Source: an uncultured Pedobacter sp. (GTDB lineage: Bacteria; Bacteroidota; Bacteroidia; Sphingobacteriales; Sphingobacteriaceae). From it: 39,209 nt of DNA. The DNA is taken from NCBI GenBank assembly GCA_946478755.1, contig CAMLDJ010000021.1:1-39209 (forward strand), given 5' to 3'. Positions 3,062 to 28,818 of the stretch are shown here, piece by piece; positions within the stretch are counted from its first letter, which is position 1; each line of letters opens with the position of its first letter. The notes beneath the pieces are model-generated. The model had not been told where the DNA came from, did not search any database, and saw only the letters and a list, made by a program, of their open reading frames with translations. The position numbers and the translations under genes are program-made.

Positions 3062-3769
3062 ATGAGACCTGCCCTTCCTGCATCTTATTATCCTTTAGGA
3101 GACCAGGCTGTTGTTATACAGTTTGGGGACAAGATCTCGGAAGATATACAGCGTCGGATTACCTCCATATGTAGTTTTCTGGAAGAGTATTCTTTTGAAG
3201 GTTTTACGGAATATGTACCTGCATTTACAACGGTCACCATTTTTTACGATCCATTGATTACCGATTATGAAACTGTAGAGCCGCTGATGGAAGAGATGCT
3301 GGAGGCGATCAGTGAAGAAGAGGAAAAAGTAACAGCGGTTACCATAGAAATCCCGGTGTTGTACGGTGGACCGCAGGGGCCGGACCTGTCATTTGTTGCT
3401 GCCCATGCAGGAATTACCGAGACAGAAGTCATCGATCTGCATACCTCAGGCGAATACCTGGTATATATGATTGGCTTCGCTCCTGGTTTTCCTTATTTAG
3501 GGGGACTGGATGCGCGGATTGCCAGCCCCCGAAAAGAGACGCCACGTGCCTGTATTCCAGCTGGTGCTGTAGGAATAGCAGGTGAACAAACCGGCGTTTA
3601 TCCGATTGAAACCCCGGGTGGCTGGCAAATCATCGGGCAAACACCCTTGAAATTATTTGATGTGGAAAAACATCCGCCGGCATTGTTAAAAGCTGGGAAC
3701 AGATTGCGGTTTGTGTCCATCACCGAAGAGGAATTTGACGAAATTAAAAGACTGGAAGATGGGGATTAA
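3062..3769 (+). CDS. pxpB: 5-oxoprolinase subunit PxpB (KipI-like)
   Basis: Subunit B of the prokaryotic ATP-dependent 5-oxoprolinase PxpABC, which opens 5-oxoproline (pyroglutamate) to glutamate. The protein has 235 residues, the usual length. The family motif GFAPGFPYLGGLD is at 138-150, followed by TPRACIPAGAVGIAGEQTG and YPIETPGGWQIIGQTP. The start YYPLGDQAVVIQFG is also typical. The older annotation for this family is KipI, inhibitor of the sporulation kinase KinA, but the genetic context (overlap with pxpC, then pxpA) settles the enzymatic role. The stop overlaps the next gene by 11 bp, suggesting translational coupling. Confidence 0.95.
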   Translation: MRPALPASYYPLGDQAVVIQFGDKISEDIQRRITSICSFLEEYSFEGFTEYVPAFTTVTIFYDPLITDYETVEPLMEEMLEAISEEEEKVTAVTIEIPVLYGGPQGPDLSFVAAHAGITETEVIDLHTSGEYLVYMIGFAPGFPYLGGLDARIASPRKETPRACIPAGAVGIAGEQTGVYPIETPGGWQIIGQTPLKLFDVEKHPPALLKAGNRLRFVSITEEEFDEIKRLEDGD

Positions 3770-4721
3770 GGTTATAAAAGGGGGCATGTTAACCACTGTG
3801 CAGGATTTGGGCAGAACCGGATATCGAAAGGATGGAATCATTGTGAGTGGTGCAATGGATAGCCTTGCCCTGGAAATTGGCAATTTGCTGCTTGGGAATG
3901 AACCCGGGGAAGCGGCGCTGGAGTGCACATTGCTCGGTCCGAAGCTGCTGTTTCAAGCCGATCATCTGATTGCAATTACGGGTGGAGATCTGAGTCCTAT
4001 GCTTGATGGAAAGCCGGTAAAGATGTGGAGCCCGCTATTTATAACGAAAGGTACTGTGCTGAGTTTCGGAGCAGCAGTAAAAGGATGCCGCAGTTATCTT
4101 ACCGTTCTTGGGGGCTTCGATCTGCCGAAAGTGCTGGGCAGTTATGCTACCTATCTTAAAGCAGGTTTTGGAGGTCATCAAGGCAGGGCACTAAAGACTG
4201 ATGATGAGTTATCTTTTAAAAAGAAATACATCCCTACAGGAGTCAGCTTCAACTGGTCGGCAGACCTGAAGCTATATCCCGATCTTGATGATCATCAGAT
4301 CAGGGTAATTAGAGGTCCTGAATATGAACTCTTTGATGATCACAGTAAGGAAGCTCTGTTTAAAGATATTTTTGTGATCACCAAAGAGGCCGACCGGATG
4401 GGCTATCGCCTGGAGGGACCACCTTTAGCAACAACTGAGCCTTATGAGATGCTATCATCAGCGGTGTCCTTTGGAACCCTGCAGGTCACACCTAACGGCA
4501 GTGCCATCCTGTTGATGGCCGATCATCAAACCACCGGAGGCTATCCGAGGGCTTTACAGGTTATTATGGTCGATCTTACCAAACTGGCACAGATGAAAAG
4601 CGGGCAACAGATCCGCTTCAAAGCAGTTACGCTGGCAGAAGCCCGCGATGCCTTCCGGCAAAGGGTAAAGCAGCTTAAACAATTACAGCAAACACTGACA
4701 TTTAAAAATAAGAGTTTATGA
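3759..4721 (+). CDS. pxpC: 5-oxoprolinase subunit PxpC (biotin-dependent carboxylase-like, KipA)
   Basis: Subunit C of 5-oxoprolinase, 320 residues. The N-terminus [20 protein letters not shown] followed by [16 protein letters not shown] is the family start; further family stretches are [15 protein letters not shown], the segment around [20 protein letters not shown], and [20 protein letters not shown] with [13 protein letters not shown] longer reading frame opens at 3711, but the ATG at 3759 begins exactly at the conserved domain, so I chose it; it lies inside the last codons of pxpB. The 3' end overlaps pxpA by an ATGA junction. The three subunits act together in the cytoplasm to salvage 5-oxoproline. 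Confidence 0.94.
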
Positions 4722-5485
4722 ACAGCGGACGATATACCATAGATCTGAACTGTGACATGGGCGAAAGCTATGGTACCTACCGGATCGGTAATGATGAGGC
4801 GATCTTCCCGTACATTACTTCTGCAAATATTGCCTGTGGCTTTCATGCAGGCGATCCAGCCGTAATGAAAAGAACAGTAAGGCTGGCCTTAAAATATAAT
4901 GTGGCAGTTGGCGCACATCCAGGCTTGCCTGATCTGCAGGGTTTCGGCAGGAGAGAGATGGCCATCAGTGCCGAAGAGGCCTATGACCTGGTGGTATACC
5001 AGATTGGTGCATTGGCCGCTTTTGTACAGTCCGAGGGCGGTGTTCTGCGCCATGTAAAACCTCATGGGGCGCTGTACAATATGGCCGCAACAGATGAAGT
5101 GTTGGCTGAAGCTATTGCAGAGGCCGTTTACAATGTTAATCCTACACTGGTGCTGTATGGTTTATCCGGAAGCGGGCTGACAAAGGCTGGCAGCAGAATT
5201 GGGCTGCGGGTGGCTCATGAGGTATTTGCCGACCGGACCTACCAAAATGACGGGACCCTGACTTCAAGAAAATCCGCGAATGCATTGATCATAGATGAGG
5301 ATGTGGCAGGAACAACTTGTCTGAGGATGGTAAAAGAGGGGTTGATCACAGCGGTAAATGGAACTGATATTGCCATTAGAGCAGATACCATATGCCTTCA
5401 TGGCGATGGGGAACATGCTGCTATTTTTGCGGCGAAGATCCATACCCTATTTAAAGAGGAAAATATTGGCCTGCAAGCGCCATGA
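4718..5485 (+). CDS. pxpA: 5-oxoprolinase subunit PxpA (LamB/YcsF family)
   Basis: Subunit A of 5-oxoprolinase, 255 residues, LamB/YcsF family with a deformed TIM barrel. Conserved stretches are [11 protein letters not shown] (9-19), [12 protein letters not shown] (37-47), [16 protein letters not shown] and [10 protein letters not shown]; the Asp and His residues in these are the likely catalytic or metal-site residues. The start codon overlaps the pxpC stop (ATGA), and the stop is followed after 4 nt by the start of a transporter. The gene order pxpB-pxpC-pxpA is common. Salvage of damaged glutamine or glutamate, or use of external 5-oxoproline, are both possible. Confidence 0.95.
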
Positions 5486-5489
5486 CCAT

Positions 5490-6665
5490 ATGAATAGAAA
5501 AATCAACTGGAGTGTTTTAACAGGAGCGGCTTTTTTAATGGCTACATCGGCCATCGGCCCCGGCTTTTTAACCCAAACTACTGTATTTACCAATTCTCTC
5601 GGTGCCAGCTTTGGTTTCGTCATCCTTGCATCCATATTGATAGATATCGCGGTGCAGCTAAACATCTGGAGGGTAATTGCTGTAGCTGAAAAGCGGGCCC
5701 AGGATATTGCTAATCTGTTGCTCCCTGGTCTGGGCACTTTCATTTCCGTGCTTATTGTTTTGGGTGGTCTGGCCTTTAATGTGGGCAATATTGCAGGGGC
5801 CGGCCTTGGCCTTAATGCGCTACTGGGTATTTCTGTAATTACAGGAGCATTGATATCAGCGGCGCTGGCAATAGCTATTTTTATGATCAGGGAGGCTGGG
5901 AAAGCGATGGACAGATTTGCACAACTCATGGGCTGCATCATGATCATGGTGATCATCTATATCGCGGTAACGTCTAATCCGCCGGTTGCCGAGGCTGCAC
6001 TCAGGACAATTGTGCCTAAAAAAATAGACCTGATGACCATCATTACGCTGGTAGGTGGTACCGTTGGCGGATACATCACTTTTTCGGGTGGACACCGCTT
6101 GCTCGATGCGGGGATAAAAGGTAAAGCGGCTTTGTCCCAGGTGAGTACCAGTGCTGTCATGGGTATTTCCGTAGCCTCACTGATCCGGGTATTCCTCTTC
6201 TTAGCTTCCCTGGGCATCATCTGCAAAGGGCTTAGCATTGATCCCGGGAATCCTACCGGATCTATATTTCAGTCAGCAGCAGGAAAGCTCGGGTACAGGT
6301 TGTTCGGGCTGGTGATGTTCTCAGCAGCCATTACCTCTGTAATTGGCTCGGCTTACACCTCAGTTTCGTTTATAAAATCTTTCAGTCCGGTCATCTCTAA
6401 AAATGAGAATAAAGTCATTATTGCCTTTATTTCGGTCTCCACTCTTATTTTTACCCTCACTGGAAAGCCCGTTAGCCTGCTGATCATGGCAGGGGTGGTA
6501 AATGGGTTTATTTTGCCCGTTACCCTAAGCACTATCCTGTTTGCAGCTTATAAAACAAGAATTGTGGGCGAATACAGGCATGCAGTCTGGCTAACTTTTT
6601 TCGGCGCTTTAGTGGTCGCAATTATGACCTATATGAGTATAAATGTACTGCTGCAATACATTTAA
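5490..6665 (+). CDS. NRAMP-fold (divalent-metal-transporter-like) permease of the 5-oxoprolinase operon
   Basis: A 391-residue inner-membrane protein with about 11 hydrophobic helices and the NRAMP (LeuT-fold) layout. The chosen start MNRKINWSVLTGAAFL lies 4 nt after pxpA; an upstream frame start at 5358 lies inside pxpA and would only add a non-conserved tail. True metal NRAMPs carry DPGN in helix 1 and MPH in helix 6. Here helix 1 reads AIGPGFLTQTT (21-31), so the metal-binding Asp is Gly, and helix 6 reads GGTVGGYITFSGGHRLLD (189-206) with no MPH. Databases would probably call it a metal transporter. The altered sites and tight linkage to pxpBCA suggest a different cargo, perhaps 5-oxoproline; that is inference. 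Confidence 0.85.
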   Translation: MNRKINWSVLTGAAFLMATSAIGPGFLTQTTVFTNSLGASFGFVILASILIDIAVQLNIWRVIAVAEKRAQDIANLLLPGLGTFISVLIVLGGLAFNVGNIAGAGLGLNALLGISVITGALISAALAIAIFMIREAGKAMDRFAQLMGCIMIMVIIYIAVTSNPPVAEAALRTIVPKKIDLMTIITLVGGTVGGYITFSGGHRLLDAGIKGKAALSQVSTSAVMGISVASLIRVFLFLASLGIICKGLSIDPGNPTGSIFQSAAGKLGYRLFGLVMFSAAITSVIGSAYTSVSFIKSFSPVISKNENKVIIAFISVSTLIFTLTGKPVSLLIMAGVVNGFILPVTLSTILFAAYKTRIVGEYRHAVWLTFFGALVVAIMTYMSINVLLQYI

Positions 6666-6667
6666 GT

Positions 6668-7210
6668 TCATAAAAATGCTGACAGGCTATTGTTCAGCCG
6701 CCGCAGCCGCCCCAACCAGATCCTGCATAATACGATCAGCTGTAAGGCAAACAAAATAATAGCTGCTGAAAGCATCAGGGACTTGCCTGTATTAAAGCTG
6801 ATGTTATAACTGAAAAACAAGAGGAAGCCGGCCATCAGCACTACCCGCGAAATAACAGAGATGACAGCATAAGTTCTTACTTTCATAAGATATCGCTGAA
6901 GCGAGGCGCGAACGGAAGTCCCGGCAACCAGGTGTCTGGACAAGCCATAACCAGTCAGATTATGAATCAATGCTGAGGCTACGCTAACTACTAGTAGTAT
7001 ATTGATTAAAAGGGGTTTCTGATCTCCGTCAAACATGGTGTAATACGCCATCAGAAAGGCCGACCAGCCAATGACCTCTATTCCCAATTGTTTCCGGATC
7101 TGTTTCAATACCGGATGATTATTTTCCTTCAGCATCTGCTGAATTTCTTCCGGAGTTTTCAGGGGAGCTTCTATATTTTTCCAGGTAGATTTTAAGGCAT
7201 CTAGTTCCAT
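6668..7210 (-). CDS. Membrane protein encoded after an ECF sigma factor (possible sigma regulator)
   Basis: A 180-residue protein with a soluble N-terminus (MELDALKSTWKNIEAPLKTP, then a charged helix) and four hydrophobic stretches at about 47-60, 67-83, 112-132 and 143-163. Bacteroidota often carry such a MELD-type membrane protein directly after an ECF sigma factor. Here it starts 3 nt after the sigma gene's stop, so the two are surely co-transcribed. A role as anti-sigma factor is plausible from position only: I see neither the zinc-binding HxxxCxxC motif of ZAS anti-sigma factors nor a FecR domain. Its 3' end faces the transporter gene with only 2 bp between the two stop codons. Confidence 0.75.
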   Translation of the reverse strand: MELDALKSTWKNIEAPLKTPEEIQQMLKENNHPVLKQIRKQLGIEVIGWSAFLMAYYTMFDGDQKPLLINILLVVSVASALIHNLTGYGLSRHLVAGTSVRASLQRYLMKVRTYAVISVISRVVLMAGFLLFFSYNISFNTGKSLMLSAAIILFALQLIVLCRIWLGRLRRLNNSLSAFL

Positions 7211-7213
7211 ATC

Positions 7214-7690
7214 CTATTTGATTAAAAGTTTTTGAATTTTGTTTTTGATCCTGTTGAGTTTAACGCCAACATAATTTTCATTGATACCGGTGATCTCGGC
7301 AATTTGCAGATAACTAAGCTCCTCTAAATAGAGCGTAACAATGGCTTTTTCGCTGTCGTCAAGCTGTTTTAACGCGGCGAAAAGCCGCTCCTGCCTTATT
7401 CCCATTTCTTCACTCTGCATTTCTTCTGCAAGGTCGGGCAGCGTGGTGCTGTACATCACATCAGGCTTTTTTTTACGAAAAGAGGCAATAGCCGTGTTTA
7501 GCGCAACACGATAAAGCCAGCTGCTCACTTTAGCTTCTCCTTTAAAGGAGGGGACGGCCCGCCAAAGCTGGTAAGTGATTTCCTGAAACAGGTCTTCGCG
7601 ATCCTCCCGGCTATCCCGGTACAGACGGCATATCTTATGAATGATTGCCTGATTTTTAGTAATCAACGCTAAAAACTGATTTTCATCCAT
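7214..7690 (-). CDS. ECF-type RNA polymerase sigma factor (sigma-70 family)
   Basis: A 158-residue extracytoplasmic-function sigma factor that directs RNA polymerase to its own promoter set. Region 2 is visible as DREDLFQEITYQLWRAVPSF and SSWLYRVALNTAIASFRKKK (about 29-75). Region 4 reads LEELSYLQIAEITGINENYV with VKLNRIKNKIQKLL at the end, the helix-turn-helix for the -35 region. Regions 1 and 3 are absent, as expected for this class. The following gene encodes a membrane protein likely to act with it. The 168-bp gap to the divergent gene at 7859 should hold its promoter, but I see no confident site. Confidence 0.93.
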   Translation of the reverse strand: MDENQFLALITKNQAIIHKICRLYRDSREDREDLFQEITYQLWRAVPSFKGEAKVSSWLYRVALNTAIASFRKKKPDVMYSTTLPDLAEEMQSEEMGIRQERLFAALKQLDDSEKAIVTLYLEELSYLQIAEITGINENYVGVKLNRIKNKIQKLLIK

Positions 7691-7858: not shown

Positions 7859-8122
7859 ATGATAAAGATACTGAAACTTCAAAAAGCTGTATACCTCATC
7901 ATTTTAGGCGTTATCGGATTAATTGCTCATAAAATAATGGAGGCCAATAAACTCGACTCAGGTATTTACGTACTCAAACTATCGGGCCTTCTATTTTTAA
8001 TAGGTGCATTGTGGCTTATATACCCTATTTTATTTGCTAAAAAAGTGAACGAGGAGGAAGTGCAGCTTGATCCCGAAAAGCAGAATGAGGCAGCGGATCC
8101 GGTTATAACAAACCAGCCATAA
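7859..8122 (+). CDS. Small two-helix membrane protein, unknown function
   Basis: An 87-residue protein starting MIKILKLQKAVYLIILGVIG, with hydrophobic segments at about 10-24 and 39-58 and an acidic C-terminal tail (NEEEVQLDPEKQNEAADP) likely facing the cytoplasm. I do not recognise a family; similar short proteins are common in Sphingobacteriaceae. The frame is open from an ATG at 7823, but those extra residues (MFRFMCSSNTCF) are poor in character and I prefer the second ATG. The gene diverges from the ECF sigma gene. Its last 20 bp overlap the 3' end of the convergent phospholipase C gene, so both ends are read on both strands. Confidence 0.65.
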   Translation: MIKILKLQKAVYLIILGVIGLIAHKIMEANKLDSGIYVLKLSGLLFLIGALWLIYPILFAKKVNEEEVQLDPEKQNEAADPVITNQP

Positions 8123-10487
8123 ACGGATCTGTAATGGAATCTTCGCCTGTTTCAACATGCCCCGCGTAGTGTTGCAAAAAAGAAGTATTATCGCTTAATT
8201 TTACCCTGAAGTCGTACCAGGAGCCACTGTTTTTTAAATCCAGTATCAGCTTAAACCTTTGTTGAGCCGCCAGGATCATAATTGTAGGCTCAATAGTTTT
8301 ATAAATCTCATCCGTTATTTCCAGCTTCAGCTCCTCATTGCTGCTGTTTTCAATCAGAAGTTCAATGTTGCCGGTTAGTTTCTTACTCAAAAGGCCCTTG
8401 CGTTCATATAAACAAATGATGTTAATTAAAGGATCTCGCCGAGTTCCTTTGAATCGCCGGAAAAATCCGTTAGGAGCAGTCACTTTAAGATCATATTGTT
8501 CATCAGCAAAATGCTCAAGCTTTATCGTATCGGTCAATTGATCACCTGCAGTCAGGGTATAGTTCCAGATCTTACCCGCTTTTCCCTTGTAAATATCGGA
8601 GGTATACACACAAAAAGGAACTCCGGATGGCCTGGTTTTTTGTCTGGACACTGCTTTTCCGGATTCAAAATGTAATTCAATATTTTCTCTTTTTACATCC
8701 AGATTGCAGGAAGAGGACAATTGATAAGGTAGTGCGCAGGCCGGCCGTGTTCCTGTTTCCTGCTTTGCCATTACATCTGGTGATAAGACAGAGAAAGAAG
8801 GGTATGAATTGATCTTTTCAATTTCATCACGTTTTAAAGGATTGGGACTAAGCTGGGCAGGCTTATTCCTTGCATTATTGATCTGGATCAGTACTTCCTT
8901 TTTTTTCAATCGAGGGGGAATCACCGGTGGCTCTGCTGCGGCAGGCCGGAAAGCAGAGGTTAAATCGCCACAGACTGCGCGCCGCCAGCTGCTGATGTTT
9001 TCACTTTTGATGACTTTGCCCGTTTTTTTACTTAAAAAATGTTCCAGGAACATCAAACAAGAGGTATGGTCAAATACCTGGGAATTCACATATCCGCCTT
9101 TACTCCATGGAGAGGCAATCAACATTGGAACCCGGTAACCGAGGCCAATCGGGCTGTCCTTTTTCAATTCATAATCTACAGCAACGTCAATTTGAGCAGA
9201 AACTTTACCGGTGTCGGGTGTGTTTGGCTTTGGAACTACGTATGGCGGCATATGATCAAAATATCCATCGTTCTCATCGTAAGTCAGGATAAAGATGGTC
9301 TTTTTCCATACCTCTGGATTTTTGGTCAGGATATCCATTGCCTCAGACACATACCAGGTGCCGTATAAGGGCGAGCTGGTGTGGTCGGAAAATTTCTGGG
9401 GAGCAACCAGCCAGGAAACAGCAGGAAGGTTTCCGTTGTCTACATCAGATCTGAATTGATAAAATAGGTCATTTTCTGGAATATTCATCCTCTGTGATGC
9501 TCCCTTATCGTCTGTAAATGAAAAAGTGTTCAATGCCAGGTAATCTTTGGGCGAGTTGATATTGGTGGCAAAAGCCTTATCTATAAGGTTCTTTTCGCTC
9601 GAAGATAGCTTTTCGTATTTTGCTCTTACCTGTTCAGCACTTAATGGCGGATTTACGGTATCGTCGCCATGTTTTCTAAAATAAGCAGAAAGCTTGACGT
9701 TGTATCGTTTTACGTATTCCATCGCATTGTCGCCATAGTTGCCCAGCCAGCTGTCTACTTCTCTTCCTTTCAAATTGGCGGTCCACAGTTCATTCTGATA
9801 TATTTTCCAGCTGATGTTATGCGTTTCCAAAAGCTCAGGAAAAGTATGCCAGTCGACATAAACATCGTTGCGTGATTCTGCCTGTGAATTGTTTACTGCT
9901 GCTATAGCCTCCCCGTTTTGTTCTGGCCTGATGGTACCCGACCAAAAGAACAGGCGGTTAGGGGTGGTACCCGTTAAAGAAGAACAAAAGTGGTGATCAC
10001 AAATCGTGAAAGCATCCGTCATGGCATAATAGAACGGAATATCTGTCCGGTCATAATAGCCTAAGGACATCAGGCTTTTGACCGGTATCCATTTATCATA
10101 CCGGCCGCCGTTACGCGCTGCCACCTGGTCGTTCCAGGAATGGGGAAGCCCTCCCTGCCAGGTGATCTTGGTTTTATTGATATCTACATGAAATGGAGCG
10201 TAAGTATTGCCCTTTTCATCCTTTTGCAGCCATACTTTATCCTTGTCGGGCAGCGTATATGCCCTCGGATCATTAAAACCGCGAACACCTTTAAGTTTAC
10301 CAAACATGTGGTCAAATGAACGGTTCTCCTGCATTAAAAAAACAATATGTTCTGCATCCAGGAAAGTGCTTCCGGGATCGGCACTAATGGCCATAGCCTT
10401 TTGGATAGACATTGGGATCACATTGGGCAGACCGGCTGCACCTGATAATATCGCTGCGTTTTTAAGGAATTGCCTTCTCGAGTTCAT
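8103..10487 (-). CDS. Phospholipase C, phosphocholine-specific type, Tat-exported (copy 1)
   Basis: A 794-residue phosphoesterase of the bacterial phospholipase C/acid phosphatase AcpA family, which cleaves phospholipid head groups. The N-terminus MNSRRQFLKNAAILSGAAGL is a textbook twin-arginine signal (SRRQFLK), so the folded enzyme is exported. Family active-site stretches are VFLMQENRSFDHMFGKLKG, TGTTPNRLFFWSG (nucleophile Thr) and TYDENDGYFDHMPPYV. The last 200 residues match the C-terminal beta domains of PLC. I use the ATG at 10487: the ATG at 10508 lies beside a TACATTTG promoter element and before the Tat motif. It follows eboF by 90 bp on the same strand, and a paralogue lies at 31293. 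Substrate preference (phosphatidylcholine, sphingomyelin or other esters) is not readable. Confidence 0.93.
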   Translation of the reverse strand: MNSRRQFLKNAAILSGAAGLPNVIPMSIQKAMAISADPGSTFLDAEHIVFLMQENRSFDHMFGKLKGVRGFNDPRAYTLPDKDKVWLQKDEKGNTYAPFHVDINKTKITWQGGLPHSWNDQVAARNGGRYDKWIPVKSLMSLGYYDRTDIPFYYAMTDAFTICDHHFCSSLTGTTPNRLFFWSGTIRPEQNGEAIAAVNNSQAESRNDVYVDWHTFPELLETHNISWKIYQNELWTANLKGREVDSWLGNYGDNAMEYVKRYNVKLSAYFRKHGDDTVNPPLSAEQVRAKYEKLSSSEKNLIDKAFATNINSPKDYLALNTFSFTDDKGASQRMNIPENDLFYQFRSDVDNGNLPAVSWLVAPQKFSDHTSSPLYGTWYVSEAMDILTKNPEVWKKTIFILTYDENDGYFDHMPPYVVPKPNTPDTGKVSAQIDVAVDYELKKDSPIGLGYRVPMLIASPWSKGGYVNSQVFDHTSCLMFLEHFLSKKTGKVIKSENISSWRRAVCGDLTSAFRPAAAEPPVIPPRLKKKEVLIQINNARNKPAQLSPNPLKRDEIEKINSYPSFSVLSPDVMAKQETGTRPACALPYQLSSSCNLDVKRENIELHFESGKAVSRQKTRPSGVPFCVYTSDIYKGKAGKIWNYTLTAGDQLTDTIKLEHFADEQYDLKVTAPNGFFRRFKGTRRDPLINIICLYERKGLLSKKLTGNIELLIENSSNEELKLEITDEIYKTIEPTIMILAAQQRFKLILDLKNSGSWYDFRVKLSDNTSFLQHYAGHVETGEDSITDPFMAGLL

Positions 10488-10505
10488 TTGCCTGGGTGTA
10501 TGAAC

Positions 10506-10513
10506 CAAATGTA
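10506..10513 (-). promoter_or_regulatory. Candidate -7 element of the phospholipase C gene
   Basis: The reverse strand reads TACATTTG, an exact TAnnTTTG match, 18 bp before the preferred phospholipase ATG. It lies in the gap after eboF and suggests that the phospholipase is transcribed separately from the ebo operon. Confidence 0.4.
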
Positions 10514-10577
10514 ACGGATTGCCAGTTAAATTTTACATCAACGCGATAAACTTTAAACAGTTAAGGCCAATTCTGAT

Positions 10578-11933
10578 TTAATCCGTCGTCAGCGCTTTCC
10601 AGATGACATCATATACTGCTGTAGCATTTATTCCTTCGGGCGCTGTTTCCTGATCTGTAATTAAAACCGGATGAAATTCGGCTGGGGTATTAATGCTGCC
10701 ATGTGAGCCTTTTATCAATGTTGCATCTAGAGGGATCACATCCATCACATACCTGAAACCAGCTTTCTTTCGTAGTAATTTATAAGCTGCCCTTGCTTTT
10801 GAAGACATAAACATTTCAACCGGATCATAACCGGGTTTTTTGTGGATGTCTACACACCTGGCATAGTCAGGTGCTTTGGCGTCATCCAGCCAAAAGTAAT
10901 AGGTAAACCAGCTTTCCGGTTCAGCAACCAGCACAAAATCCCCTGCACGTTCGTGGTCCAGGCCATGTTCTTTTTTACCTTCATCATCCAGGACCATGGC
11001 AATACCAGGTGTGTTTTCAAGCAAAGCTTTCACCTGCTGCTTCACAGAAGGATCATTGATGTAAACATGTGCGATCTGATGGTCTGCTACAACAAATGCC
11101 TTTGAAGCTCCGGCGTCCAGCAATTCCAGGCCTCTTTCCATGCGAATCTGCAGCAGTCCGGCTGTTCTGAAAACACGGTTCAGATGAACAGGATGGTTTA
11201 CCGATGTAATTCCGTATTCCGAGAGGATAATGATGTTCGCATTTTTCTTTTCATAAAAGCCGACCAGCTCCCTTAATAGGGCGTCTATTTGATGGAGTTC
11301 TTTGCCGATAAGGGAAAAATCGGGTCCGAATTTTTGCAGGCAGTAATCCAGGTGAGGGAGATAGATCAATGTTAAGGTTGGATCGTATAGATTATCAGTT
11401 AACATTGATGCGCGGGCAATCCATTCCGACGATTTGATATTAGCTCCAGGGCCCCAAAACTGAAACAGGGGAAACTGCCCCAATTTTTCCTGTAAAAGGT
11501 CACGCAGTTCTGCCGGTTCCGAGTAGCAGTCTGGCATTTTCCGTCCATCAGCCAGGTAATTAGGGCGTGGCGTTACCGAATAATCTGCACTGGAATACAT
11601 GTTGTACCACCAGAACATATTGGCACAGGTAAAGGCATGGTCTTCTCTTTTTGCCCGCTCCCAGATCTTTTCGGCCTTAACAAGTTTGTTCGATTGCTTC
11701 CAGAATTTAATCTCAGCATCTGTATGGTCATACCAGCCATTGCCAACAATGCCGTGGCCGGAAGGAAGTTCGCCCGTTAGATAGGTAGATTGTACTGCTG
11801 TAGTAAGCGCCGGGAGCATGGGCTTAATGCTGCCCACTTTTTTATTTTTAATATATTGCTGCAAAAATGGGGTATGCGCTCCAATCAGGTTCTGCGACAA
11901 GCCAACAACGTCTATGACTACAGTTTTTTTCAT
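10578..11933 (-). CDS. eboF: EboF: alkaline phosphatase superfamily/nucleotide pyrophosphatase-like
   Basis: Last gene of the ebo cluster, 451 residues, related to type I phosphodiesterases/nucleotide pyrophosphatases. It starts MKKTVVIDVVGL (Asp8 as metal ligand), with the nucleophile Thr44 in PALTTAVQSTYLTG, then LPSGHGIVGNGWYDH, and IYLPHLDYCLQKFGPD further on. The superfamily's usual SDHG metal pair reads SEYG at 238-241. A C-terminal GSHGSI His element is kept. No signal peptide is evident, so it probably acts in the cytoplasm on a phosphorylated or nucleotide-linked intermediate; that is inference. An alternative ATG at 11948 overlaps the eboE stop; I prefer 11933, seven nucleotides after eboE. 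Confidence 0.88.
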   Translation of the reverse strand: MKKTVVIDVVGLSQNLIGAHTPFLQQYIKNKKVGSIKPMLPALTTAVQSTYLTGELPSGHGIVGNGWYDHTDAEIKFWKQSNKLVKAEKIWERAKREDHAFTCANMFWWYNMYSSADYSVTPRPNYLADGRKMPDCYSEPAELRDLLQEKLGQFPLFQFWGPGANIKSSEWIARASMLTDNLYDPTLTLIYLPHLDYCLQKFGPDFSLIGKELHQIDALLRELVGFYEKKNANIIILSEYGITSVNHPVHLNRVFRTAGLLQIRMERGLELLDAGASKAFVVADHQIAHVYINDPSVKQQVKALLENTPGIAMVLDDEGKKEHGLDHERAGDFVLVAEPESWFTYYFWLDDAKAPDYARCVDIHKKPGYDPVEMFMSSKARAAYKLLRKKAGFRYVMDVIPLDATLIKGSHGSINTPAEFHPVLITDQETAPEGINATAVYDVIWKALTTD

Positions 11934-11940
11934 TTTAATA

Positions 11941-13155
11941 TCAGGCAAGGGTAAGGATATTCATTACCCAATTTAACTCATTGCTGATGGATTGGGCTAT
12001 CGGTAATTTTATCTGTTCAGGTAAAACCTCCCAGGTGTAAGTTTCTACTTCCAGGTGACTGGTAAACGGTTTGTTTTTTTGCATTTCAAGTAAGGCAGTG
12101 ATGTCGTCCTGGGTAGATTGCAGCAGGCCGATCTCTTTGATGGAAATGGGGACATGGAAATGTGAACGCCATTGCGTAATGCCTGAATGATCAAAATCTT
12201 CAAGAGCTGCTGGCAGGTCGGGGTATCTGATTAATGATCCGTCATCTTTTTTTGCCACTACCTGATGTAAATAGGTTGCTTCATTAAATGTCGCAAAGCT
12301 TGATCGTATCGCCTCCCGTTCTGTCTCGCTTCCGTTTAAATCCGCTTTCAGGGCTGCGCTGATCTGGAGTTTACCTACCTTAATACCTTTTTGTTCCAGT
12401 TCTGCCAGCACGGCTTCATGATCTTCATAACCAATTGCAAAATGGCAGACATCGTAACAAAGACAGAGGTGCTTTTTAATCAACCCTGCAGCCTCATTAT
12501 TCGATAGATTAAACTTAAGTGCTATCATTGGAATACCCAGGACCAGCAGGTCATCTTCAAACCAATCGATAAACTCGCGTCCGGTTTCCAGTATTCCGTC
12601 CGGCTCCGGTTCGATGTCAAGGTGCAGCAGCTGGCCGGTTTCCTGGTGTATCCTGATCAGCTCTTCAATGACACCAATCACATGTAGCGTCGAAGCTTGT
12701 TTTGCCCTGTTAAATTCTTCGCTGTTTTTGAACCAGTGCCTGTAACTTAAGGGAGAGGTAGAAATTCCACCATCCATCCCTGCAGGTAGTATTGACTTAA
12801 GAATATGGAATAAGCGAATGGTATAATCCATGCGTTCCTTTGTGGTCCAATCTGGCGCATGTACGTTTTCTTTAACTATGGTATGATGAAAATCCCCATA
12901 TGGGAAGCCGTTCATGGTAAAAACATAAGCGTCATTTTCCTTTAACCATTGCTGAAATTGCCTTAGTGCATCCTCATCCTGCAGTTCAATGCTGGCTTGG
13001 TTAGATAGCCTTAATCCCAGGCCAAGAGGCTGCCCGGGGCTAACAGATTTCCTGATGACCGGGAAGTTCTGCTTCAATGCATTGAAGTCGTCGGCCCAGT
13101 TTTTACCGGCATGAATATTTGTACAATACGTTAAGTGTCCGGTCTTTACTTTCAT
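11941..13155 (-). CDS. eboE: EboE: metabolite traffic protein, xylose-isomerase-like TIM barrel
   Basis: A 404-residue cytoplasmic protein of the EboE family, related to sugar phosphate isomerases/epimerases (AP endonuclease 2 fold). It begins MKVKTGHLTYCTNIHAGKNW, the recognisable EboE start. Likely metal-site residues lie in LHLDIEPEPDGIL, LCLCYDVCHFAIGYED, and HFHVPI near the C-terminus. The gene starts 1 bp after eboD stops and ends 7 bp before eboF, so translation is closely linked. In cyanobacteria the cluster is needed for traffic of a scytonemin precursor to the periplasm; the chemical step of EboE is not established. Confidence 0.9.
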   Translation of the reverse strand: MKVKTGHLTYCTNIHAGKNWADDFNALKQNFPVIRKSVSPGQPLGLGLRLSNQASIELQDEDALRQFQQWLKENDAYVFTMNGFPYGDFHHTIVKENVHAPDWTTKERMDYTIRLFHILKSILPAGMDGGISTSPLSYRHWFKNSEEFNRAKQASTLHVIGVIEELIRIHQETGQLLHLDIEPEPDGILETGREFIDWFEDDLLVLGIPMIALKFNLSNNEAAGLIKKHLCLCYDVCHFAIGYEDHEAVLAELEQKGIKVGKLQISAALKADLNGSETEREAIRSSFATFNEATYLHQVVAKKDDGSLIRYPDLPAALEDFDHSGITQWRSHFHVPISIKEIGLLQSTQDDITALLEMQKNKPFTSHLEVETYTWEVLPEQIKLPIAQSISNELNWVMNILTLA

Positions 13156-13156
13156 G

Positions 13157-14335
13157 TTAGTGGTTAATTGTGTTTAAACTCCTACTGTTTTTAGCGAAAT
13201 CCTTCAGATAATCACTTGCCTTGATCAGTAACTGCTGATCCATCTCATGCACTTCCTTTCCTGTACCAAGATCTGTCAGTAAGGTAATGGTCAATTTACC
13301 ACCCAGGTGCTCCTGAAACTCTTTAAGCCCCTTCAAAATAGGCGATCGCACATCGTTAATCTGTATAAAAGGATCTGTGATGTCAAAGGAAAGTTTAAGC
13401 AGGACATTCAGGATGCGTTGCAGTTTATCTGCCGGGAGCAGGCCCGTTAAATAAGAATAAGTGCTGTCCAGTGCAATGCCCATGGCTACAGCCTCCCCAT
13501 GTAACACACTGAAATTACTCAGCTGTTCCTGTTTATGGGCGCTCCAGTGGCCAAAGTCCAGTGGTCTTGCAGATCCTGTTTCAAAAGGATCGGCCCCGGC
13601 AATATGCTCTAAATGGAGCTTCGCACAGCGTTTGATGAGTTCGTTCATGCTTTCGGTGTTTCTGTCAGCCAGCGCGGTGGCATGGGCTTCTATCCAGAAA
13701 AAGAACTCCCGATCTTTGATCAGGGCAACCTTTATGGCTTCCGAAATTCCCGAGCGGTAATCCCGGTCACTCAGGGTGTCTAAAAACCGGTCGTCGTTAA
13801 AAACGGCTGCAGGTGGTGCAAAGGTGCCCAGAAAATTTTTCTTCCCTCTGTAATTAATGCCGTTCTTAACACCAATGCCCGAATCGTTTTGAGAAAGTAC
13901 AGTGGTGGGGATGCGGATGTGCTTAATGCCGCGGTGCGAAACTGCTGCGGCATAACCTGCCAGGTCAAGCACCGCGCCTCCGCCAATGGCTGCGAGATAA
14001 GAGTGCCTGTCTATCCCATAAGTATCCACTGCTGCAACGATCCGGTCAAACAGGCGGACATCGTTTTTCGACGCTTCCCCACCGGGAATGACCATAAAAT
14101 CGGGGATCAGTTTTACCTGCTGATGCCGGTCAAAATAAGAGGAAATGTCATGGATAAGGCTTGGATGGGCGCTAGCTGCACCCTCATCAATCACGAAATA
14201 AATTTTCTGTATCCCTTCTCCCGGTCGTTCTTTAAAAAAATCGGCAAGTGTGGTGTTCTCTACTTCGAAAAGTGAAGTGCTGAAGTATATTTTATATTCG
14301 AATTTAACACTGAAAGACTGTTGTAAGTAACTCAT
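13157..14335 (-). CDS. eboD: EboD: 3-dehydroquinate synthase-like cyclase
   Basis: A 392-residue member of the sugar-phosphate cyclase/3-dehydroquinate synthase superfamily. The NAD-binding stretch is AIGGGAVLDLAGYAA (116-130) with RIPTTVLSQNDSGIGVKNG. The three zinc ligands of the family are present: Glu199 (ISEAIKVALIKD), His263 (LDFGHWSAH) and His279 (LHGEAVAMG). It therefore looks catalytically intact, but its sugar phosphate is unknown and it need not make dehydroquinate. The frame is open upstream to 14446, inside eboC; I chose the ATG at 14335 (MSYLQQSFSVKFEYKIYF), 14 bp after the eboC stop, because the upstream residues are antisense-like and unconserved. Confidence 0.9.
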   Translation of the reverse strand: MSYLQQSFSVKFEYKIYFSTSLFEVENTTLADFFKERPGEGIQKIYFVIDEGAASAHPSLIHDISSYFDRHQQVKLIPDFMVIPGGEASKNDVRLFDRIVAAVDTYGIDRHSYLAAIGGGAVLDLAGYAAAVSHRGIKHIRIPTTVLSQNDSGIGVKNGINYRGKKNFLGTFAPPAAVFNDDRFLDTLSDRDYRSGISEAIKVALIKDREFFFWIEAHATALADRNTESMNELIKRCAKLHLEHIAGADPFETGSARPLDFGHWSAHKQEQLSNFSVLHGEAVAMGIALDSTYSYLTGLLPADKLQRILNVLLKLSFDITDPFIQINDVRSPILKGLKEFQEHLGGKLTITLLTDLGTGKEVHEMDQQLLIKASDYLKDFAKNSRSLNTINH

Positions 14336-14349
14336 AAGTTCGTCTGTAA

Positions 14350-15264
14350 CTAAGTAACGGCAAAGGCTTTGCCTAATAAAATGGAGACGGGCAGTAGAAT
14401 AACTACAAATATAGCAACATTCCATACGCCAAAGGCAGCTGCCCATGCTGCATTCATCAGGATTAAGGCGATAACGCCCGATTTCACCGCCTGACCGATA
14501 TGTTTACCAATGGGGCTCTGAATGGCTATGATCAGGGGAATAAAGATCATCAGTGCAAAGGGCACTGCAAAAATAAGCGAGGGTAGCAGGTTGTTCCTGC
14601 TTGCTGCCACAACTAGAATAGCGGCGATGACCAGAGTATAAAGCAGGATTGCAAAGTAAAGTGTTCTTTTACTGCCACCATGCACTTCTCCGCGGCTGAT
14701 CATGGTGATGGCGGCGATGTATACAATGGGAACGAGGGATAAGAACCACCATTGCGGTATGGCTGCAGGAATGATACTCATTCCCAGTAATAAATTTAAA
14801 CCACGGCACAAGCCCATATTTAAAGGGCCAAAAATAGCATGGTGTTTCAGGTATTTGTTATAGATCAGGCAGCATACCATGATGGCTACGGCAAGATACT
14901 GCGAGGTCGGATGATACAGACCTGCGGCGAAAATGCCAATAAAAAAGAAAAGGCCACCAAAAATTGTTGCTGCTTTTTTTGAAACCAGACCGCTTGGGAT
15001 CGGCCGTTCCGGGCGCTCGATTTTATCCAGCTCAGCATCGAAAACATCATTCAATATAATGCCGCCACTATAAAGGCCGATGGTTGATAAGCATAAAAGG
15101 ATTACTGGAAGCAAAGTAAGCTGTGCGCTCATGCCCCAGTTAAAACCTCCGGGGGCCTGCTGGATAAAATAACCCACAATGGCCATTCCCGCCAATACAT
15201 CGGCTACGGCGGTAACCACATTTGCCGGGCGCATTAACCGTAGGTAACCTAATATTTTATTCAT
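14350..15264 (-). CDS. eboC: EboC: UbiA-like prenyltransferase, integral membrane
   Basis: A 304-residue UbiA-superfamily membrane protein with about nine hydrophobic helices, starting MNKILGYLRLMRPANVVTAV. The first Asp-rich motif NDVFDAELD (72-80) followed by KIERPERPIPSG is intact; in UbiA enzymes it binds the prenyl diphosphate through magnesium. The place of the second Asp motif (DxxxD) instead reads MISRGEVHGGSKRT (188-201). This changed second motif may mean another acceptor chemistry. UbiA proteins attach polyprenyl chains to aromatic or sugar acceptors in the membrane, which fits a lipid-carrier step for export. The gene starts 7 bp after eboB. Confidence 0.92.
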   Translation of the reverse strand: MNKILGYLRLMRPANVVTAVADVLAGMAIVGYFIQQAPGGFNWGMSAQLTLLPVILLCLSTIGLYSGGIILNDVFDAELDKIERPERPIPSGLVSKKAATIFGGLFFFIGIFAAGLYHPTSQYLAVAIMVCCLIYNKYLKHHAIFGPLNMGLCRGLNLLLGMSIIPAAIPQWWFLSLVPIVYIAAITMISRGEVHGGSKRTLYFAILLYTLVIAAILVVAASRNNLLPSLIFAVPFALMIFIPLIIAIQSPIGKHIGQAVKSGVIALILMNAAWAAAFGVWNVAIFVVILLPVSILLGKAFAVT

Positions 15265-15271
15265 GATGGGT

Positions 15272-16213
15272 TTAAGAGATGATGATTGAATTCTTGTCTA
15301 TTCTTGGTTGTTGGCCACCCCTTAATATCGAGTTGCTGGCAAATTTTTGGCTCTGATCGATGTTTTTAACCGCAGTGAAGTCATGCTCATCAATCTGTCC
15401 GCTTTGGGCAAAAGCGGTGATGGCATTGCGATAAGTAACCAGTTCTATGGCAGCTGAACTAATTCCTGATCTTTTCATTAAGGCCGCGGTTTTTGGTATC
15501 GCCAGAGGGTCACTGATCCCCCAGTCGGCCGCCGAATTGATCATGATCCTTTCCGGGCCATATTGTTTGACCACTTCTACCATACGCTCATTTCCCATTT
15601 TTGTGAAGGGGTAAATGGTGAAGGCAGCCCAGAAGCCTCTGTCCAGCACTTCCTTTACCGTCTCCTCGTTATTGTGGTCTACGATGACCATATGTGGGGG
15701 CAGACCTTGCTCCATAGCAATGTCCATACTCCGCTGAGTGCCTTTTTTCTTGTCGCGGTGCGGGGTGTGAATCTGTACCGGCAGCCCGGCTTCCTTTGCA
15801 AGTTCCAGCTGTAAGCGGTAGTATTTTTCTTCCGCTGGCGTCTGGTCGTCAAAGCCGATCTCGCCAATCCCGACCACACCTTCCTTAAAAATAAACTGTG
15901 GCAGGATTTCCATAACCTGTTCCGCGAGCTTTTCACTATTCGCTTCCCTGGAGTTTAACCCGATGGTACAATAATGTTTAATGCCAAATTGCGAAGCCCT
16001 GAACCTTTCCCAGCCAATCAGGCTGCTGTAATAATCGGTAAAGCTGTTTACACCGGTTCTCGGTTGTCCGAGCCAAAATGCAGGTTCTATCAGCGCGACA
16101 ATGCCTGCATCTGCCATGGCCTGGTAATCATCCGTAGTCCGGGAAGTCATGTGGATATGCGGATCGAAAAACTTCATTCCGCTGATGTCGCTCAGGTCGA
16201 GGGGGCTTTCCAT
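15272..16213 (-). CDS. eboB: EboB: TatD-like metal-dependent hydrolase
   Basis: A 313-residue TIM-barrel hydrolase of the TatD/amidohydrolase type. Metal-binding residues are visible in order: His19 and His21 (FDPHIHM), Glu in GVVGIGEIGFDD, His in QIHTPHRDKK, His in IVDHNNEE, and Asp in NSAADWGISDP. I chose the ATG at 16213 because an AAAGGAGA Shine-Dalgarno sits a few bases upstream, a rare strong site in this window; a longer frame starts at 16258 with MCCNENFDERNKGEK and cannot be ruled out. It is the second ebo gene. The substrate is unknown. Confidence 0.9.
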   Translation of the reverse strand: MESPLDLSDISGMKFFDPHIHMTSRTTDDYQAMADAGIVALIEPAFWLGQPRTGVNSFTDYYSSLIGWERFRASQFGIKHYCTIGLNSREANSEKLAEQVMEILPQFIFKEGVVGIGEIGFDDQTPAEEKYYRLQLELAKEAGLPVQIHTPHRDKKKGTQRSMDIAMEQGLPPHMVIVDHNNEETVKEVLDRGFWAAFTIYPFTKMGNERMVEVVKQYGPERIMINSAADWGISDPLAIPKTAALMKRSGISSAAIELVTYRNAITAFAQSGQIDEHDFTAVKNIDQSQKFASNSILRGGQQPRIDKNSIIIS

Positions 16214-16272
16214 CTTTTCTCCTTTATTCCGCTCGTCAAAATTTTCGTTACAGCACATAATTCTGGTGTTTA

Positions 16273-16977
16273 TTAAGGGTTCATTTGTTGTGTCAATTCA
16301 TAAATCTCGGGGGCCACTGTTCTTTGGGCCGCCAAACGCTCCTGTATATAATCCTGAAGGGTCGCTGTCAGCGCATCGTTTAGCCTTTCCTTCAGACCCA
16401 CAATCAGGTTAACGTCCTTTTCCGTAAAAAAAGCTTTCAGGACCAGCTGGTTCCAGGCCGCCTGGGAAAGGAACTTTGCTGGGTAAGGATTGTGGTACAT
16501 GATGGCTTCCAGCACCGTTCCTATATTGCTTCTTATCCCTTCTTCGCAACGGCTTATCCATTCTTCGGGATAAGCGTAAAGGGGAAGGGCAGTGTACAGT
16601 GCAACTTGTTCGTTCATTTCCGCTGCCGCGAACAAGCCGTTAATTTTTTTAACATAGCTTTCCTTGTCGTCTGATGGCAATTGCATGAGCAGCCAGACCC
16701 TCGACAGTCTGTCCAGTGACCAGCTGTTGATTTCGAAGCCTGGTAGCAGCTGGCTGATCTTTCCCGGTTCCGCACCCATCAGTGTTATATTTTTTTTTGA
16801 GGTCATCCGGGGCAGATGAGAAAAACACAAATGGAGCTGCACCGATCTGTCTTCCGCGACAATCAGGTCAACTTTACTTTGCAGCCATTGCATAGCCTCT
16901 GTCGTCAGGTTTTGCCTGATGACCTGCAAAAAAATAGCATTCAGCTTTCTTAGCTTAGGTATATCTATCAAAAGCAT
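16273..16977 (-). CDS. eboA: EboA domain-containing protein
   Basis: First canonical gene of the ebo cluster, 234 residues, a soluble mostly helical protein of unknown activity. Family-like stretches include AMQWLQSKVDLI near the start, and LYTALPLYAYPEEWISRCEE with GIRSNIGTVLEAIMYHNPYP in the middle (about 125-165). I chose the ATG at 16977 (MLLIDIPKLRKLNAIFLQVI) over 17016, because a CCGGAGA site precedes it and the longer form would overlap the gene upstream. It lies 10 bp after the TMEM220-like gene. EboA is named by homology within the cluster; no catalytic motif is visible to me. Confidence 0.88.
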   Translation of the reverse strand: MLLIDIPKLRKLNAIFLQVIRQNLTTEAMQWLQSKVDLIVAEDRSVQLHLCFSHLPRMTSKKNITLMGAEPGKISQLLPGFEINSWSLDRLSRVWLLMQLPSDDKESYVKKINGLFAAAEMNEQVALYTALPLYAYPEEWISRCEEGIRSNIGTVLEAIMYHNPYPAKFLSQAAWNQLVLKAFFTEKDVNLIVGLKERLNDALTATLQDYIQERLAAQRTVAPEIYELTQQMNP

Positions 16978-16987
16978 GATTCTCCGG

Positions 16988-17356
16988 TTAACAGCTATAA
17001 AAATAATTAATGGCAAGTGCCCCGCTAATGATCAGTAATCCAAAAAACTCCCGTGTTTTCTCAATATAAGGTTTTGTAGCCTGCATACTTTCCACAAGGC
17101 TGGGGCTTTTGTATTTCATGATCCAGTCGCGCACACCGTCTTTAGCAAAAAACAAAAATATAGCGTAAATCAGATAGAAAGATATGGCAAGGAGATAGAC
17201 AGTTGGAAAAAAATAATTAAATATGGCAAATCCACAACAAATGGATGCAACCATATAAATGGGTACCCAAAGCCAGGAATCGTTATCGTTTAAATTTACG
17301 TAAGCGAACAAAATAAAGGCAATGCAAAAAATGGAGTTTAAAATACTCAGCAGCAT
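16988..17356 (-). CDS. TMEM220-like membrane protein at the head of the ebo operon
   Basis: A 122-residue membrane protein with about four hydrophobic segments. The stretch FAYVNLNDNDSWLWVPIYM near the N-terminus and REFFGLLIISGALAINYFY at the C-terminus resemble the transmembrane protein 220 family of Bacteroidota and eukaryotes; I make that call from memory of the family pattern. The chosen ATG at 17356 gives a typical start (MLLSILNSIFCIAFILFAYV); the frame is open to 17401. It ends 10 bp before eboA, so it is probably the promoter-proximal gene of the operon and may serve the same membrane process. Confidence 0.7.
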   Translation of the reverse strand: MLLSILNSIFCIAFILFAYVNLNDNDSWLWVPIYMVASICCGFAIFNYFFPTVYLLAISFYLIYAIFLFFAKDGVRDWIMKYKSPSLVESMQATKPYIEKTREFFGLLIISGALAINYFYSC

Positions 17357-17376: not shown

Positions 17377-17428
17377 TGTGTTTGTTTATTACTAAATACA
17401 AATAAACAGAATATTAAGTCGATTTAGC

Positions 17429-27534: not shown

Positions 27535-28818
27535 TTATTTTATATTGTAAACGATGCGATAGATGGTTCCTTTGGAATCATCTGTTACATATAGAGACCC
27601 ATCAGCACCCTGGGCCAGTCCGCAGGGACGGTGATCTGCTCTGCTCATCGCTGCCTTTTCCGGTGTTCCGGCAAAGTTGTCTGCAAATACTTCCCAGGCA
27701 CCCGATGGCTTTCCATCTTTAAAAGGCTGGAAAGCAACAAAAAATCCTTTTTGCGGCTCCGGGGCACGGTTCCAGGAACCATGGAAAGCGATAAATGCGC
27801 CGTTTTTATAACGTTCAGGGAACATCTTCCCGGTATAGAACAGCAAGCCGTTAGGCGCCATGTGCGCAGGAAAGGCGACTACAGGATCCAGGTACTTTGC
27901 ATCAGCTTCTTTTTTCTTATCACCTCCATATTCCGGCGCTACAATTTTTTTATGCTGGATGCCATCATAGTACATAAATGGCCATCCGGCGTTGTCGCCT
28001 TTTTTCAAAGCATACAGACATTCTGCAGGCAATTCGGCAGATTCTTTAGTGTTGTAAAGTTCCGGCCATGAGCTGCTCAGGTTATCCCTTCCATGCTGCA
28101 TGACGAAAAGCTGGTTATTTTGCTGGTTCCAGTCCAAACCTACTACATTTCTTAATCCTGTGGCGTAACGCTGACCTTCGCTGTAGCTCTGGTTCAGTTT
28201 ATCTTTTTTAAACTGCCAGATGCCCGCTGCGGAGTCCAGTAGCGGACAGCCCGGGATACCCGGAGATCTTAAGCCGCGGTCTTGTTCCTGGCAGGAATTT
28301 GAAGGCACGCCAATGTTTACATACAGGTTGCCATCATTGTCGAGTACCAATGATTTGGTTTCATGTTGACGGCCCATTTTTAGTCCTTTCACAATCGTTT
28401 CGGGATGATTTGGGTCGATCACTTCGTTCTTGTCATTTAATTTGTATCTGAACACTTCCTGGTTTGAGGACGCATACAGATACCCGTCTTTAAGATAGAT
28501 GCCCGTACCACCATAATTGCCAAAACCGCCAGTGATCGTTGCGCGGCCTTCGCTGTTCTCTTTCAGCACTATAATCCCCTTTTCCTCCTTTACGCGGGCT
28601 AACTTTACATAAATAATGCCCTGGGGGGTGACAACAATATGGCGGGCTTTGGCACCGATATCGGCTACCTTCAATGCGCCGAATCCTTCTGGCAGCTTCA
28701 ATCCGACATTGTCTGCATCTGGTTTTGGACCGCCGATGGCAGGGTGGCCCTTAAATGCATATAAACCGAAAATGATCAATGCACATAGGGCAAGAGGTAT
28801 TAAAAATATCTTCTTCAT
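27535..28818 (-). CDS. Sorbosone-dehydrogenase-like PQQ/soluble-type sugar dehydrogenase (beta-propeller)
   Basis: A 427-residue exported six-bladed propeller protein related to L-sorbosone dehydrogenase and soluble PQQ-glucose dehydrogenases. The signal is MKKIFLIPLALCALIIFGLY. Family stretches: LPEGFGALKVADIG, the GRQHETKSLVLDNDGNLYVN strand, YATGLRNVVGLDWNQQNNQL, FMYYDGIQHKK and FIAFHGSWNRAPEPQKGF, then DHRPCGLAQGADGSLYVTDD at the C-terminus. It would oxidise a sugar or aldehyde in the periplasm and pass electrons to the cytochrome c encoded next to it. It probably shares an operon with the upstream GH105-like gene (93-bp gap). Cofactor and substrate are inferred from the family. Confidence 0.85.
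   Translation of the reverse strand: MKKIFLIPLALCALIIFGLYAFKGHPAIGGPKPDADNVGLKLPEGFGALKVADIGAKARHIVVTPQGIIYVKLARVKEEKGIIVLKENSEGRATITGGFGNYGGTGIYLKDGYLYASSNQEVFRYKLNDKNEVIDPNHPETIVKGLKMGRQHETKSLVLDNDGNLYVNIGVPSNSCQEQDRGLRSPGIPGCPLLDSAAGIWQFKKDKLNQSYSEGQRYATGLRNVVGLDWNQQNNQLFVMQHGRDNLSSSWPELYNTKESAELPAECLYALKKGDNAGWPFMYYDGIQHKKIVAPEYGGDKKKEADAKYLDPVVAFPAHMAPNGLLFYTGKMFPERYKNGAFIAFHGSWNRAPEPQKGFFVAFQPFKDGKPSGAWEVFADNFAGTPEKAAMSRADHRPCGLAQGADGSLYVTDDSKGTIYRIVYNIK

Follow-up and report, generated by a model that had tools for sequence, protein, structure and literature searches.

A TMEM220-family membrane protein gene recurs beside the ebo operon in two lineages of Bacteroidota

A gene encoding a small membrane protein of the TMEM220 family is a frequent partner of the ebo operon in two lineages, although it is not a strict requirement. 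The case described here lies in a 39,209-nucleotide stretch of DNA from an uncultured Pedobacter sp. (contig CAMLDJ010000021.1 of assembly GCA_946478755.1; hereafter the window), where eboA to eboF are complete, in order and preceded by such a gene. When the ebo operon was named, the ABCDEF arrangement was called ancestral in Bacteroidetes and Cyanobacteria and an isoprenoid-cyclitol product was proposed (Yurchenko 2016, PMC5133447; statements from cited papers refer throughout to the excerpts available). What the operon makes, and how transport across a membrane is achieved without an obvious transporter, has been an open question since 2016. As a second membrane protein, TMEM220 offers a new point of entry: its gene is open to deletion and to the assays used for the ebo genes themselves.

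Beyond the existing ebo papers, two observations were not found in the literature: the TMEM220 partnership and an alternation between EboD and inositol-3-phosphate synthase. Neither "TMEM220" nor "inositol" occurs in the main texts of PMC5133447, PMC6282210 and PMC6092422 (supplements and most subscription papers were outside reach). Among the matches listed, the TMEM220 literature was human or animal work, as judged by title or the start of the abstract, with no link to ebo found, and no paper joining ebo with inositol-phosphate synthase was found.

Linkage of TMEM220 to the ebo operon

Neighbourhoods were compared in the best 80 of 399 genome loci matched by EboC. TMEM220 immediately precedes eboA, in the same orientation, in 51, and is divergent in eight: within 121 bp in three, and at about 7.6 kb in five Chitinophaga loci, where genes resembling susC/susD (by open reading frame reading) and one for an FG-GAP protein (by Pfam) intervene. 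None was seen in the other 21, of which six are truncated on the upstream side; for L042 the gene lies just outside the stretch compared. Because 51 of the 80 related loci read TMEM220-A onwards on one strand, mostly with A to F in order where the locus is long enough, the arrangement is not a product of chance. TMEM220 beside these loci spans 17 genus labels, the window counted, against eight for the next neighbour family; metagenome-assembled genomes lacking a genus name were given labels of their own, and most neighbour families are unannotated.

Two denser samples were compared. The first comprised 151 genomes of the order containing Pedobacter hiemivivus, with EboC in 52 and TMEM220 in 62. 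Of the 52 ebo genomes, 41 have TMEM220 immediately upstream in the same orientation and only three have it elsewhere, the full table (both, ebo only, TMEM220 only, neither) being 44/8/18/81. The second comprised 299 Flavobacteriaceae genomes, with EboC in 48 and TMEM220 in 69. Here 41 of the 48 ebo genomes have the gene no more than 8 kb away and in the same orientation, 36 of them on the 3' side and five on the 5' side, and five more have it elsewhere. Seven further 3' flavobacterial loci were mapped: eboF and TMEM220 are separated by -20 to 25 bp in all but one, where the gap is 3193 bp; one genome (G629) has TMEM220 91 bp upstream and another (G500) a partial match at a contig end. In both samples co-occurrence was well above independence by Fisher tests, whose values ignore kinship. 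Some genomes carry a second TMEM220.

The TMEM220 tree has 81 rows and a short alignment of 129 columns; rows were thinned at 88% identity, by length and by contig edge, a thinning that kept 61 of 94. A starred clade of 32 rows (100/99) unites the ebo-adjacent copies of Sphingobacteriales and Chitinophagales, that of the window included. Of the 5' flavobacterial copies, three group with two unlinked sequences in a second starred clade, and a fourth, that of L255, is paired with a single unlinked sequence. The ten 3' copies share a starred clade of 16 with six that are not linked to ebo. One further TMEM220, that of L252 (genome G446), was found by PF15071 but missed by the settings of the mapping and tree step. 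As the 5' and 3' copies occupy separate clades, the simplest reading of the tree suggests that the two linkages arose separately, by repeated recruitment; alternatively, an old TMEM220-ebo link may have been followed by a move and losses. Two TMEM220s near the ebo-linked clade (L177 and L184) come from genomes G135 and G223, which have no EboC over cut-off; they are possibly relics of a lost ebo operon.

The closest relatives of the window among named organisms are Pedobacter. The original prediction had described a full ebo cluster in A to F order with gaps of 1 to 60 bp and a TMEM220-like gene 10 bp from eboA, to be given up should family searches fail to place the six proteins. Such a search was run and the placement held (Table 1), with PF15071 confirming the TMEM220 assignment. 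The gaps from TMEM220 through to eboF are 10, 14, 7, 14, 1 and 7 bp, the eboA-eboB gap becoming 59 bp with the inner EboB start; they are suggestive of co-transcription as a seven-gene operon, TMEM220-eboABCDEF. The start of EboD was taken as the ATG at 14335, a longer reading frame from 14446 running into eboC. EboA scores 219 bits against the EboA_family model NF035937, below its cut-off of 320, and no Ebo-specific model matched EboB or EboF in an NCBIfam scan of both proteins. Overall, the operon in the window is a real member of the known family, in a TMEM220-bearing variant that two lineages commonly have and that was probably assembled more than once.

Table 1. Features of the presumed operon and its flanks, with positions in the window
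Feature	Position	Strand	Evidence and remarks
Conserved 30-bp element, candidate promoter/operator	17397-17426	-	40 bp before TMEM220 start
TMEM220-family membrane protein, 122 aa	16988-17356	-	First gene of presumed operon; PF15071 91.7 bits, cut-off 27
eboA, helical protein, possible scaffold	16273-16977	-	Domain NF035938 167.5 bits, cut-off 50
eboB, TatD/amidohydrolase-like	15272-16258	-	PF01026 63 bits, cut-off 27; alternative ATG 16213
eboC, UbiA-superfamily prenyltransferase	14350-15264	-	NF035940 405.5 bits, cut-off 250
eboD, sugar-phosphate cyclase other than the housekeeping AroB	13157-14335	-	PRK06203 554 bits, cut-off 333
eboE, TIM-barrel protein	11941-13155	-	NF035939 498 bits, cut-off 250
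eboF, alkaline-phosphatase-superfamily protein with altered metal site	10578-11933	-	PF01663 199.6 bits, cut-off 23
Phosphocholine phospholipase C, neighbour	8103-10487	-	TIGR03396 771 bits, cut-off 580

The AlphaFold2 model of the window TMEM220 has four long helices (pLDDT 88). Eight residues are invariant across 62 sequences: N23, D24, W30, Y34, E99, R102, E103 and G106. Since loops 1 and 3 lie on the same side in the model and loop 3 carries seven Lys/Arg residues, the invariant site is predicted to face the cytoplasm.

With up to three mismatches allowed, the conserved element before TMEM220 was found in 13 of the 59 upstream regions searched, each of them from Pedobacter, Sphingobacterium or the window; the pattern had been written from six of these 13. 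Several copies contain a AAATCGATTT-like palindrome and CTGTTTATTTG. The strict form of the Bacteroidota -33/-7 promoter pattern occurred upstream of TMEM220 in one of 60 regions, compared with a shuffle mean of 0.4, and was thus not enriched. These upstream scans took in only TMEM220s above 155 or 160 bits.

EboD and the other Ebo proteins

EboD is distinct from AroB, the housekeeping 3-dehydroquinate synthase (DHQS). Its score against the AroB model TIGR01357 is 224 bits (cut-off 305), and a separate AroB over cut-off is present in 12 of 12 ebo genomes tested. At the positions that we take to be DHQS R264, N268 and 272, all 92 Bacteroidota EboDs and four from other clusters have S or A, D and W, whereas R, N and T stand there in 11 of the 12 AroB rows; one of the AroB rows deviates widely, probably through misreading or misalignment. 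EboD also has an invariant Arg one column past the R264 position, where a one-residue alignment shift is possible. A column first taken as DHQS K250 was mixed in the AroB rows (T, H, F, L) and was not used. The zinc ligands are kept, as are K152, N162 and K197. The cyclase of structure 4p53, like EboD, has D at the N268 position; it is named ValA (PMC4426668). On the strength of the sub-threshold score, the separate AroB and the invariant pocket changes, EboD was rejected as the housekeeping AroB.

Evidence bearing on the product came from plasmids. Twenty-five loci were fetched from searches with EboC, prenyltransferase and EboE (16, 29, 6 and 48 overlapping records matched). Among these 25 loci, all with ebo-like genes, EboD was present in eight and inositol-3-phosphate synthase in 13; no locus had both and four had neither. 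The 13 synthase loci comprise nine from Actinomycetota, three from haloarchaea and one from Gemmatirosa (Gemmatimonadota), and every one also holds an extra TIM-barrel isomerase. The eight EboD loci come from four Alphaproteobacteria, one Betaproteobacterium, two Deinococcus and one Aureibacter. Of the four with neither cyclase, L243, L244 and L249 are also without EboC, while L207 has EboC and no cyclase in the stretch. Because two unrelated cyclases alternate in one gene set, the distribution suggests that both types share a cyclitol intermediate, a line of support for a cyclitol product that is independent of earlier arguments. Furthermore, as the chemistry of inositol-3-phosphate synthase is known, it marks a cyclitol as the likely first product and guides the choice of target for mass spectrometry.

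The best solved relative of EboC is digeranylgeranylglyceryl phosphate synthase (6m31, 3e-8), an enzyme that prenylates a polyol phosphate. The residues of the first Asp motif of EboC, NDxxDxxxD, are preserved in 97% or more of the 102 Bacteroidota rows and throughout the nine outside rows; in the second region (SRGEVHGG in the window) it is mainly the glutamate that is kept, with Gln in one outside row. EboA is nearly all helix in its AlphaFold2 model (pLDDT 96), which had no significant match in the PDB.

EboF had been read as a phosphodiesterase. This is doubtful, as canonical metal ligands appear to be replaced: in a weak alignment (domain E about 1) with the Xanthomonas-type NPP 2gsn, a His of the first metal site corresponds to Gln, and the Asp-His pair of the SDHG motif corresponds to Glu-Tyr (SEYG in the window; aligned weakly with two NPP structures). 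In type I phosphodiesterases and NPPs, the Asp-His pair and the first-site His are metal ligands. The residues that stand in place of the Asp-His pair, E239 and Y240, recur in 97% or more of the 91 Bacteroidota rows and in nine of nine others, from Bacteroidota to haloarchaea. EboF is therefore probably not a canonical two-metal phosphodiesterase.

A proposed lipid carrier and competing explanations

We propose that EboD would close a sugar phosphate into a cyclitol, that EboB and EboE would modify it, and that the membrane enzyme EboC would attach a prenyl chain to give a cyclitol lipid in the inner membrane, with EboA as a putative scaffold. This lipid, together with the small TMEM220, would let a probably aromatic metabolite pass the inner membrane. 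The model as a whole, an ebo lipid system with TMEM220 as its second membrane partner, is one we favour tentatively, at a confidence somewhat short of even. Its prenyl-cyclitol pathway, which the original prediction had put forward as its own inference, gains support from the alternation of EboD with the synthase; the idea itself dates from the operon's naming and from the sugar-cyclitol lipid carrier proposed for Nostoc, where the ebo mutants studied retain the scytonemin monomer in the cytoplasm (Klicki 2018, PMC6282210).

Much of what weighs against this model concerns the constancy of the linkage, and so also bears on whether TMEM220 is a mere passenger, lying beside ebo through an inherited neighbourhood with an unrelated function of its own. 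In a phylum-wide sample of 247 genomes (EboC over cut-off in 20, TMEM220 in 33, both in 15), TMEM220 adjoins ebo within 5 kb in six of the 20 ebo genomes, three on the 5' and three on the 3' side. It lies away from ebo in nine of the 15 genomes with both; five of the 20 lack it and 18 genomes have TMEM220 only. Spirosoma and Larkinella genomes, too, have the two genes apart. Even in the denser samples, eight of the 52 ebo genomes of the order and two of the 48 in Flavobacteriaceae are without TMEM220, while 18 of 62 and 23 of 69 TMEM220 genomes, respectively, are without EboC. The window protein also had no match in the plasmid collection, which holds ebo clusters of other phyla. Thus the gene heading the cluster, whose constancy across Bacteroidota the original prediction had proposed to check, is recurrent in two lineages but inconstant, and from its presence in many genomes without ebo it must have other roles as well. 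The mixed 3' clade of the tree fits a passenger, as does L180, a locus without ebo that has neighbour families in common with L150-L152. Conversely, a passenger would not be expected at opposite ends of the operon in different lineages, on the same strand and mostly a few bp away, nor to co-occur with ebo well above independence (kinship uncorrected) and to exceed every other neighbour family in genus labels. We regard it as rather unlikely, while allowing it a real chance.

Further points against the carrier model concern chemistry. No ebo metabolite is known, a lipid-conjugated monomer was not found by Klicki (PMC6282210), the EboD/synthase split follows taxonomy and therefore reflects a handful of events rather than 21, and the altered site of EboF leaves its pathway step unexplained. 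Additionally, three EboC homologues, from Maribacter, Zobellia and Algoriphagus, transfer a farnesyl group to 8-hydroxyquinoline-2-carboxylic acid in vitro, and the Maribacter enzyme does so to quinaldic acid as well (Amiri Moghaddam 2022, PMC9235831); no cyclitol is needed for this. The ebo genes could then form a self-contained pathway to a prenylated aromatic or quinoline metabolite, EboC prenylating the final product, the Nostoc export defect being indirect and TMEM220 merely aiding a membrane enzyme. We consider this unlikely. The acceptors tried in vitro were aromatic only (PMC9235831), the Nostoc ebo mutants studied all accumulate the same cytoplasmic scytonemin monomer, with no gene-specific intermediates (PMC6282210), and an inositol-3-phosphate synthase where EboD would otherwise be is at odds with an aromatic product. 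Far less probable again is that EboD is an extra DHQS by which ebo boosts aromatic precursor supply. The model that EboD exceeds, PRK06203, is named for DHQS; however, besides the AroB score, the separate AroB and the pocket changes given above, EboD is missing from synthase-type clusters and forms its own clade in the published tree (PMC5133447).

A more specific version of the carrier model can be imagined, which we offer as quite an unlikely speculation. TMEM220 would be the missing ebo membrane subunit, docking on EboC or on the cyclitol lipid at the cytoplasmic face via its invariant ND..W..Y and E..RE..G residues and performing or gating the transfer of a lipid-bound metabolite. The ebo genes would make a general export-carrier cyclitol ether lipid in bacteria and archaea (carbacyclitol through EboD, or inositol phosphate), and animal TMEM220 would keep a related lipid job in the Golgi.

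Neighbouring genes, cargo and known systems

The phospholipase C gene that the original prediction had placed downstream of the cluster does lie there, 90 bp past eboF. As part of an ebo module it was rejected: only Pedobacter loci, 13 of the 80, have it next to ebo, and the window holds a second phosphocholine phospholipase C gene about 21 kb from the eboF-side copy (31293-33830, plus strand, TIGR03396 761 bits). Downstream of the copy next to eboF lie an ECF sigma factor gene and, after it, a gene for a 180-aa protein with no Pfam match (6668-7690). Genes of CT_C_D, CT_A_B, LamB/YcsF and Nramp-like type stand in a row at 3062-6665, probably a 5-oxoprolinase set with a transporter.

No cargo pathway was recognised among the window proteins scanned, and no common biosynthetic neighbour in the 80 loci, where most neighbour families are unannotated. 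In an NCBIfam scan covering part of the reading frames, no Scy model exceeded its cut-off; a glucose/sorbosone-dehydrogenase-like protein (PF07995) encoded at 27535-28818 reached 28 bits against ScyE_fam, the ScyD/ScyE family, below the cut-off of 80. Elsewhere, in four Streptomyces ebo-like clusters (L202, L232, L233 and L250; model tested for one), the gene immediately upstream of that for inositol-3-phosphate synthase is of the ScyD/ScyE family and a multicopper oxidase gene lies close by, and genes for PF12902 ferritin-like proteins, which we take to be VioB-type, adjoin ebo in Aureibacter and Mycetohabitans. Since ebo or ebo-like sets thus sit with aromatic chemistry, in the form of scytonemin, indole (EDB), ScyD/ScyE and PF12902 genes, we infer by analogy that the cargo in the window is aromatic. 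In both Mycetohabitans and Aureibacter, members of different phyla, the PF12902 protein gene follows one for an uncharacterised protein of 587-633 aa, the pair preceding ebo (L204:795-3813 and L205:4168-7228). A lone eboE was also seen inside an apparent type II polyketide cluster on a Streptomyces plasmid (L244:7965-9143).

Among known systems, the window has the six genes and the ABCDEF order of the ebo operon of Bacteroidota, cyanobacteria and eustigmatophyte plastids (PMC5133447), and differs from that operon in having TMEM220 at its head. In Nostoc punctiforme, ebo genes are needed for the scytonemin monomer to get to the periplasm, eboD having been outside that study (PMC6282210); in the window, by contrast, no scytonemin gene was found. 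The EDB cluster of Pseudomonas fluorescens NZI7 has a full ebo set (PMC6282210) and gives indolic products in E. coli (review PMC9655573), but contains further non-ebo genes. The SCO3242-type Streptomyces, haloarchaeal and Gemmatirosa clusters share the UbiA prenyltransferase, TatD and EboF-like proteins, and those of Actinomycetota also EboE and mostly EboA, whereas no EboA or EboE match was obtained in the haloarchaeal plasmid loci. Their prenyltransferases score 120 bits (Streptomyces) and 178 bits (haloarchaea) against the EboC model, both below the cut-off of 250. In these clusters inositol-3-phosphate synthase and the extra TIM-barrel isomerase replace EboD, and TMEM220 is unmatched on the plasmids. 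Finally, human TMEM220 resides in the Golgi, and its knockdown fragments that organelle and disturbs secretion (PMC6979480). It acts without ebo genes and is likened to the window protein by the family name (PF15071), the human sequence itself lying outside the comparison; the linkage to ebo gives genetic context to a family that has this human member.

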